Positions 49,783-51,838 of a DNA stretch of 64,000 nucleotides are shown here, one piece after another. The translations under genes and the position numbers were made by a program. Numbering within the stretch: position 1 is the first letter of the stretch; every line of letters starts with the position of its first letter. The notes under the pieces are model-generated. The model had not been told where the DNA came from and searched no databases. It saw nothing but the letters and a program-made list of their open reading frames with translations. This stretch comes from Pelagibius litoralis (lineage in GTDB: Bacteria; Pseudomonadota; Alphaproteobacteria; Kiloniellales; DSM-21159): NCBI GenBank assembly GCA_029287455.1, contig JARFRB010000081.1, positions 1 to 64,000 on the forward strand. The letters run 5' to 3'.

Positions 49783-50283
49783 ATGAAAGCCGTTTTTATG
49801 ATGCCAAATTTAATATTTGAGTTTCCTTTGCGAGAGTTAGAGTCGAAGCGCGGCGGTGATAAGAAGAAATCGAAGAAACAGAGATCGATCCTCTTTCGCG
49901 AATGGATCCCGATGCTGGGTGACCGCGCGGTTCTCGAGATCAAGAAACTGGAAATAGCCTTCGATGACGAGAAGGGGAGAATTTGCGTAAAATGCAGCCG
50001 CAAGCCCTTCTCGGACACGCTGACGAATGCGCCTCCAATTCTGGAGATTTACCTCTTCGACAAAAAGCGAAGGCCAATGAACGCAGTCAGGTACGGCTTC
50101 GCGTGGAATAACCATCTGGGGGCCCTTGAGCCCGCGATGGAGGACTCGGATAAGCCTCTCAGGAAAAGGCATGTTAGGCGCACGTGCTATGTTGCTGCCC
50201 GCATTCGGACCCAAGGGTTTCGGTGGTCCGAGGATCCCCGGGTCGTCAAGGCGCGCAAGCGTCATAAACTGCCGGCTGCCTAG
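49783..50283 (+). CDS. Hypothetical Lys/Arg-rich protein
   Basis: 166 residues, very basic (KRGGDKKKSKKQR; RKRHVRRTCYVAARIR; KARKRHKLPAA). No membrane helix or recognisable domain. Two Cys lie in ICVKCSRKPF. ATG at 49783 follows GAGGG. The gene follows a strong promoter with a dyad. Its codon use looks more AT-rich than its neighbours, which may mean recent acquisition. The basic charge would suit nucleic-acid binding, but that is speculation. I do not recognise it. Confidence 0.6.
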   Translation: MKAVFMMPNLIFEFPLRELESKRGGDKKKSKKQRSILFREWIPMLGDRAVLEIKKLEIAFDDEKGRICVKCSRKPFSDTLTNAPPILEIYLFDKKRRPMNAVRYGFAWNNHLGALEPAMEDSDKPLRKRHVRRTCYVAARIRTQGFRWSEDPRVVKARKRHKLPAA

Positions 50284-50671: not shown

Positions 50672-50749
50672 CTAGCGCAGGAACACGGCAAACGCGATGA
50701 TGGTGAAGGTCGCGGGGAAGACGAACCGGCAAATCCGGTCGATCCGCAT
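50672..50749 (-). other. Ion channel M4 helix encoded beyond an amber stop
   Basis: Directly after the channel's TAG (50753-50755) the same frame continues GCC then ATG at 50749, encoding MRIDRICRFVFPATFTIIAF and five further residues to a stop at 50672-50674. RIDRxxRxxFP followed by a hydrophobic run is the classic M4 start of pentameric ligand-gated channels. The reading is 25 codons. Whether it is translated, by readthrough or by reinitiation at TAGGCCATG, is unknown. Confidence 0.8.
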
Positions 50750-50752
50750 GGC

Positions 50753-51733
50753 CTAGGCGGCTCTGTCCCGCGAAACCAGGTAGCTCGTCGCGAGAGACTC
50801 GAGAAGCGCCAGGAAGACCAAGATCGTGGCGCTGCCGATGAAGAGGTCGAGCAGGGTGAAATAGCCGAGCACCGGAACTATGTTCGTGGTCGCGAAGATA
50901 AAGGCGATCAAGGTCAGCATGGCCGTGGCCGACAAGCCGATCTGGGTGCCGAAGGCTGCGGGATCGATCCAGAACACGCACCAGGACATCGCCACGATCA
51001 AGCAAAGCGGAAGGATGATTTTCCAGACATAGTAGGCACGAATGCGGTGGGCCGTGATCTCGAAGTTGTAGCGCGCGTGATCGCCTTCAAAGCCCTTCAC
51101 ATACTGGCTATCCACCTTGCCCATCACGGAGGTCACGATCCAGTCGGAGATGTTCAACTGCTCGACCATGCCGGAGAACGTCTCGTCGGCGATGAGCTGG
51201 ACGTCGCTGTCGGGCCATTTCAGGGTTATCAGTTGAACGATGATGCTCTGGGTGTCGAATGGAAAGTCGTGAAGATTGTGGTAGCTGGCGATGGTGCCGA
51301 AGAATCTTTGAATATACCTGACCTCTCCATTTGGGCCGATGCTGACCTCGCGTGGCCACCGCTCGAAGAGCCGCCCTGAGTTTCGGGCGATCAACTCCGG
51401 GTACCAGACCTCGTCCAAGGCGATCTCGCAGCCCTCTAGGTGGGCCAAACGCATGTCCGTCCAGGTTCTCAAGATACCCAGATCCACCGTGATGGTCTGA
51501 TCGACGTCATTGATTTCGCGAAGGTCGATCAATCTGACGCCCACCGTGACGGGTGTTGGGGTGCCCGCGGGATCTGGCCGCACGTTTGTCCGGGTTTGCG
51601 GCGGGGGGCAGGCTTCCTCGTTGCTTCCGGCTTGCTGCTGCGCGCTGGCAGAAGGCACGCCATATATCAACGCCGCCATACAGACGGCGACCAAGAGCGA
51701 AAATCGCACGGCGAAGTTCGACGCGCGCTCCAT
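50753..51733 (-). CDS. Pentameric ligand-gated ion channel homologue lacking M4 in its frame
   Basis: 326 residues. The signal peptide is about residues 8-32. The extracellular beta-sandwich follows with NLHDFPFDTQ, the loop marked by FPFD; no disulfide Cys pair flanks it, as in bacterial GLIC/ELIC relatives. M1 is about residues 233-256 (WKIILPLCLIVAMSWCVFWI), M2 about 261-282 (IGLSATAMLTLIAFIFATT, lining the pore) and M3 about 286-320. The frame stops after LVSRDRAA, before M4. The M4 helix lies in frame beyond the stop at 50749-50672. ATG at 51733 is preceded by AAGGGGAAG. The ligand is unknown. Confidence 0.9.
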   Translation of the reverse strand: MERASNFAVRFSLLVAVCMAALIYGVPSASAQQQAGSNEEACPPPQTRTNVRPDPAGTPTPVTVGVRLIDLREINDVDQTITVDLGILRTWTDMRLAHLEGCEIALDEVWYPELIARNSGRLFERWPREVSIGPNGEVRYIQRFFGTIASYHNLHDFPFDTQSIIVQLITLKWPDSDVQLIADETFSGMVEQLNISDWIVTSVMGKVDSQYVKGFEGDHARYNFEITAHRIRAYYVWKIILPLCLIVAMSWCVFWIDPAAFGTQIGLSATAMLTLIAFIFATTNIVPVLGYFTLLDLFIGSATILVFLALLESLATSYLVSRDRAA

Positions 51734-51838
51734 GGGAGACTTCCCCTTTTTTCGCACCTAAACCGCCCGAAACGATAACATTGCCGAAAACCTAGAGGTT
51801 CCAAGAGGCGGGAAACGCGCGAAGGGGAGAAGAGCCGG

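Follow-up and report, generated by a model that had tools for sequence, protein, structure and literature searches.

A premature amber codon ahead of the fourth transmembrane helix in a bacterial pentameric ligand-gated ion channel gene

In the present study, a gene encoding a pentameric ligand-gated ion channel (pLGIC) was found to carry an in-frame amber codon ahead of its fourth transmembrane helix (M4). The gene lies in a window of 64,000 nucleotides, i.e. the whole stretch of DNA analysed, from a draft genome of Pelagibius litoralis (3.63 Mb in 141 contigs, 96.29% complete, 63% GC). We propose, with a probability of roughly 0.65, that the stop is lineage-specific and represents a real nonsense mutation. 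On this proposal, the TAG would be a genuine and recent base change, and translation would end after M3, giving a 326-residue product without the outermost helix, which relatives need for assembly; the gene would have little or no activity. The M4 frame of 25 residues that follows would be a remnant of the intact gene. Its ATG would probably be an inherited methionine codon and would not have arisen to start a peptide of its own. The first-pass annotation had offered three options, i.e. a nonsense mutation, read-through of the stop, and reinitiation giving a naturally split channel. The first of these, or a base error in its place, is favored herein, and no support was found for the other two; the premature stop most likely arose by recent mutation or through a base error, and a naturally split channel is improbable. 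As read here, the locus is one more bacterial pLGIC gene, interrupted, and of minor interest.

Results

The channel frame occupies positions 50756..51733 of the minus strand; it starts with ATG and encodes, in 326 residues, a signal peptide-like N-terminus, an extracellular domain and the helices M1, M2 and M3. An alternative GTG start at 51757 would add 8 residues to this ORF. The in-frame TAG at 50753..50755 (minus strand) stands at residue 327. On the minus strand, the order is TAG (50755-50753), GCC, ATG (50749-50747), 24 more codons and a second TAG (50674-50672), leaving a gap of three bases between the first TAG and the ATG. The ATG-initiated ORF of 25 codons thus delimited (50672..50749, minus strand) lies in the frame of the channel, and its product is MRIDRICRFVFPATFTIIAFAVFLR. 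No further stop or frameshift was seen in the channel frame. The sequence and coordinates reported for these elements in the first-pass annotation were reproduced, as was the statement that no frameshift is needed to reach M4. Under the standard code, TAG precedes M4, and the four helices are not contained in one polypeptide.

Several observations concern the identity of the channel. First, the upstream ORF matched PF02931 (5.8e-14) and positions 1-86 of PF02932 (1e-10), both above the curated cut-offs, and the ligand-binding domain and M1-M3 sequence place it among the pLGICs. Second, in an alignment of 13 channel sequences, the window sequence included, the FPFD motif of the Pro-loop (F157, P158, F159, D160) is invariant, as are W198, R230, P242, P287 and others. 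Third, the best profile matches were GLIC entries (1e-66), including a "Glr4197/proton-gated channel" entry that we take to be GLIC, the best single-sequence matches were a GLIC-GlyR chimera and ELIC (8e-27 to 1e-25), and the structure matches included the GABA-A and glycine receptors of animals and sTeLIC. The fold and the domain order resemble those of GLIC (Gloeobacter), ELIC (Erwinia) and sTeLIC; however, these are single chains with four helices, whereas in the window channel M4 is cut off by the stop. Apart from this premature stop, the gene is, as judged from its sequence, an ordinary bacterial relative of the neurotransmitter-gated ion channels.

The 25-residue ORF alone matched positions 211-233 of the 233 in PF02932, the extreme end of the profile, with 14.7 bits (E 0.038); the curated cut-off, 28.1, is not reached, which is to be expected of a match that spans 23 residues only. 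Residues D332, R336 and P340 of this segment are invariant columns in the 13-sequence alignment. The match to the end of the profile, together with these three residues, identifies the short ORF as a genuine M4 and not a chance reading frame, in agreement with the first-pass annotation. When the read-through protein was modelled with AlphaFold (7-sequence alignment, mean pLDDT 79.4), M3 spanned residues 294-321 and M4 residues 325-352, and the stop at residue 327 therefore sits in the first turn of M4. This is a small correction to the earlier description of a stop exactly between M3 and M4.

The comparison with orthologues had been named in the first-pass annotation as one source of evidence that could speak against a split channel, through relatives with an intact single frame and this strain alone mutated; as far as the comparison reaches, this is the pattern obtained. 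Nine relatives are at least 40% identical to the window channel over most of the chain (L002, L003, L004, L010, L011, L097, L099, L100 and L116, the identical L002 and L098 ORFs being counted once, and L014 being left out because its 42% identity covers 77 residues and ends at a contig edge before the M3-M4 place). In all nine, M3 and M4 share one frame; the nearest relative is only 56-58% identical to the window channel. They include channels from Roseibium (L002), a Roseobacter-named assembly (L003) and a Woeseiaceae MAG (L004). Four of them, i.e. L002, L003, L010 (genome G040) and L097 (genome G869), at 48-58% identity, align with the window channel over nearly the whole chain, including the junction region, yet keep M3 and M4 in the single frame that is interrupted in the window. 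When the position of the stop was read residue by residue in all of the nine except L116, a sense codon was found at residue 327 in 8 of 8, with leucine in 5. Since the relatives examined lack a stop at this place, recent mutation, or else a base error, is likelier than a natural split.

Searches beyond these relatives took in 385 genomes from the class, 398 from the phylum, 87 from one family, and 397 and 48 from two orders; these groups overlap and are mostly samples of larger ones. Only one of 113 distinct other match rows (counted by hand, some weak or partial and some short of the M3-M4 place) showed an in-frame stop. This channel (L094, G482:C198:13110-13948), from a genome that is 99% complete, resembles the window gene as a bacterial channel gene with an in-frame stop, which indicates that breakage of such genes occurs elsewhere; the lesions differ, a TGA and a frameshift near M1 in the former and a TAG at M3-M4 in the latter. 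After the removal of 4 duplicates, 4 ORFs cut by contig ends and 4 from L004 and L094, 84 distinct channel ORFs were left from 96 rows, and none of these 84 ended between M3 and M4. The alignment extended into M4 in 69 of them, and in the other 15 it ended at profile positions 282-304, followed by 23-49 more residues that are candidates for a diverged M4. In titles and abstracts of the open-licence literature searched, a naturally split prokaryotic pLGIC was not found. Edge-case fragments among such channels have been attributed, in Jaiteh 2016 (PMC4795631), to possibly unreliable assembly.

The channel gene appears from these searches to be patchily distributed. The genus was represented by the window genome alone, no channel match was obtained in the 11 other genomes of the family (1 of 12 positive, the window's own), and the channel occurred in 6 of 61 genomes of the order, counting the window's own and two partial or weak matches. 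Homologues on plasmids were limited to 8 records, all merely 21-25% identical, and none was obtained from the virus contigs searched. A second channel lending its M4 was sought within the window genome and rejected as a candidate, the genome having one such channel. In the channel loci before L116, examined with 1.5-3 kb of flanking sequence (less where a contig ended), none of 9 neighboring window genes was matched. Likewise, the adjacent 3-hydroxyacyl-CoA dehydrogenase was compared with the 11 other family genomes; its best match in each, not necessarily an orthologue, had neither the channel nor the other window neighbors in the flanks examined. Beside the channel, an ORF of 166 residues (49783-50283, plus strand) has no Pfam match.

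The state of M4 bears on the age of the stop. The window M4 is 38-58% identical to the M4 of relatives, whereas the intact relatives compared are 25-46% identical to each other in this helix, near-identical Roseibium pairs aside. Because this identity is no lower than among intact relatives, M4 has, on this comparison, not decayed. In a neutral simulation, covering point changes only, the frame stayed clear of any other stop with a probability of 9.5% at a divergence of 0.1 substitutions per site, falling to 2% at 0.15. The stop may thus have been followed by up to about 0.1 substitutions per site, and recent inactivation is fully compatible with the data; M4 is undecayed, but neutral drift up to this level is allowed. 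Given an undecayed M4 and no second lesion in the frame, the stop may be recent or a consensus error, or M4 may still be in use, and sequence alone cannot separate these. Regarding the place of the stop, the nine-codon M3-M4 stretch holds 2 of 100 single-change nonsense opportunities, the mutated codon itself being uncounted. A random stop within this stretch would be roughly a 2-3% event, which mildly favors something special, a figure qualified by the fact that this location is the reason why the gene was singled out.

Discussion

The main competitor of a real nonsense mutation is an error of consensus or base calling in the draft assembly, in which case the real gene would be intact and the channel ordinary. 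We consider this possible but clearly the less probable of the two. The stop has been seen in a single draft genome, the rest of the frame appears intact and constrained, and another relative from a draft assembly, L004 (1707-2694; 52% identical), contains a frameshift within M2 so that its pieces are read apart. However, the sequence around the TAG bears no mark of error-prone context and no long homopolymer.

Basal read-through of UAG exists in bacteria, and low-level read-through might yield some full-length channel, enough for function. The intact M4 and remaining frame would suit such an arrangement, and UAG reporter assays in Pseudomonas putida are described in one report (PMC12713390). 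Despite these points, read-through is very unlikely in the window genome. No CTA anticodon, and hence no amber-reading tRNA, was present among the 40 of 41 tRNA matches (ARAGORN) that could be classified, the remaining match lying at a contig end of a genome that still contains gaps. The best match to the pyrrolysyl-tRNA synthetase (PylS) model reached 22.8 bits, below the cut-off of 178.15. Moreover, TAG is a common normal stop in the window: among 54 ORFs selected there on length and codon-position GC, 20 terminate with it, the channel included. A Pfam scan of 13 of the remaining 19 gave domains in 8. The view of the first-pass annotation that amber is not reassigned here was borne out by these counts. 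Amber reassignment or suppression was considered as a separate candidate and rejected on the same observations, i.e. common TAG stops, no CTA tRNA seen and no PylS above the cut-off. The frequency of TAG stops was noted across the whole window; 20 of 54 is high, by general expectation, for a genome of 63% GC.

To our knowledge, a two-chain pentameric receptor with M4 supplied in trans is known only from the laboratory. If the window channel were naturally split, translation would stop at the TAG and reinitiate at the ATG, and the resulting 25-residue M4 peptide would pack against M1-M3; nature would then offer a test of M4 as an independent chain, a question addressed with engineered receptors in the work cited here. 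Such a split is, at best, as improbable as read-through. The short distance between stop and start is compatible with translational coupling; in a 2019 study (PMC6728339), strict coupling is described for 13 of 14 gene pairs tested, one of the coupled pairs, from the archaeon Haloferax volcanii, having a gap of 10 bases. The peptide is also arginine-rich at its N-terminus and has a single hydrophobic segment (mean KD of 1.97 over 17 residues), features that suit insertion with the N-terminus inside, and its sequence is undecayed. However, a clear ribosome-binding site was not found. Using a generic 16S tail, the anti-SD energy at the M4 ATG was -2.1. Of the 1695 ATGs in the window, 62% bind this tail at least as strongly; the energies of 20 chosen gene starts ranged from 0 to -11.8, and 18 of these starts bind it more strongly than the M4 ATG does. 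The same calculation gave -7.8 for the ATG of the upstream ORF and -6.5 for its GTG, the ATG being the stronger. In the coupling study, 4 of 5 pairs from E. coli reinitiated substantially less once the SD had been removed, although the SD was not always essential (PMC6728339). Furthermore, the arrangement is not conserved in relatives (0 of 84 other channel ORFs end there), and a methionine stands at the position of the M4 ATG in 1 of the 8 relatives read there, the intact L003. The M4 ATG therefore need not have arisen as a start, and it is probably an inherited methionine codon.

The glycine receptor provides a parallel, and the findings covered in one review (PMC4891346) bear on both sides. 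GlyR domains expressed apart can complement each other, and the oscillator mouse (R316X) resembles the window gene in a truncation before TM4, with TM4 placed on a separate chain in that work. However, the GlyR experiments used artificial co-expression in animal cells, the C-terminal piece included the greater part of the long TM3-4 loop, and function was abolished when more than 55 residues of this loop were lost (PMC4891346); the window channel has no such loop. According to the same review, GlyR truncated before TM4 forms no pentamers, and the oscillator truncation behaves as a null allele in mice (PMC4891346). ELIC and Torpedo receptors, as cited in PMC9116227, still function in oocytes after M4 has lost its C-terminal end. 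Because GlyR without TM4 does not form pentamers and the evidence from ELIC concerns only the end of M4, the 326-residue product of the proposed nonsense mutation is, by analogy, probably inactive. A channel that functions with three helices and no M4, for which the tolerance of ELIC and Torpedo receptors could be invoked, is the least probable of the explanations, given that this evidence covers only the end of M4, that GlyR without TM4 makes no pentamers (PMC4891346) and that no ORF among the other 84 checked stops short of M4. The split, read-through and three-helix explanations together hold what remains after a real nonsense mutation and a consensus error.

Work on channels would be better served by the uninterrupted homologues, at 48-58% identity, than by the window gene. 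In other proteobacterial genomes (families f198, f203 and neighbors; L073-L079 and L082-L093), many pLGIC-like proteins were observed in open frames of approximately 700-800 residues, in which a long N-terminal part precedes a channel match at the C-terminal end; some genomes have several such proteins.
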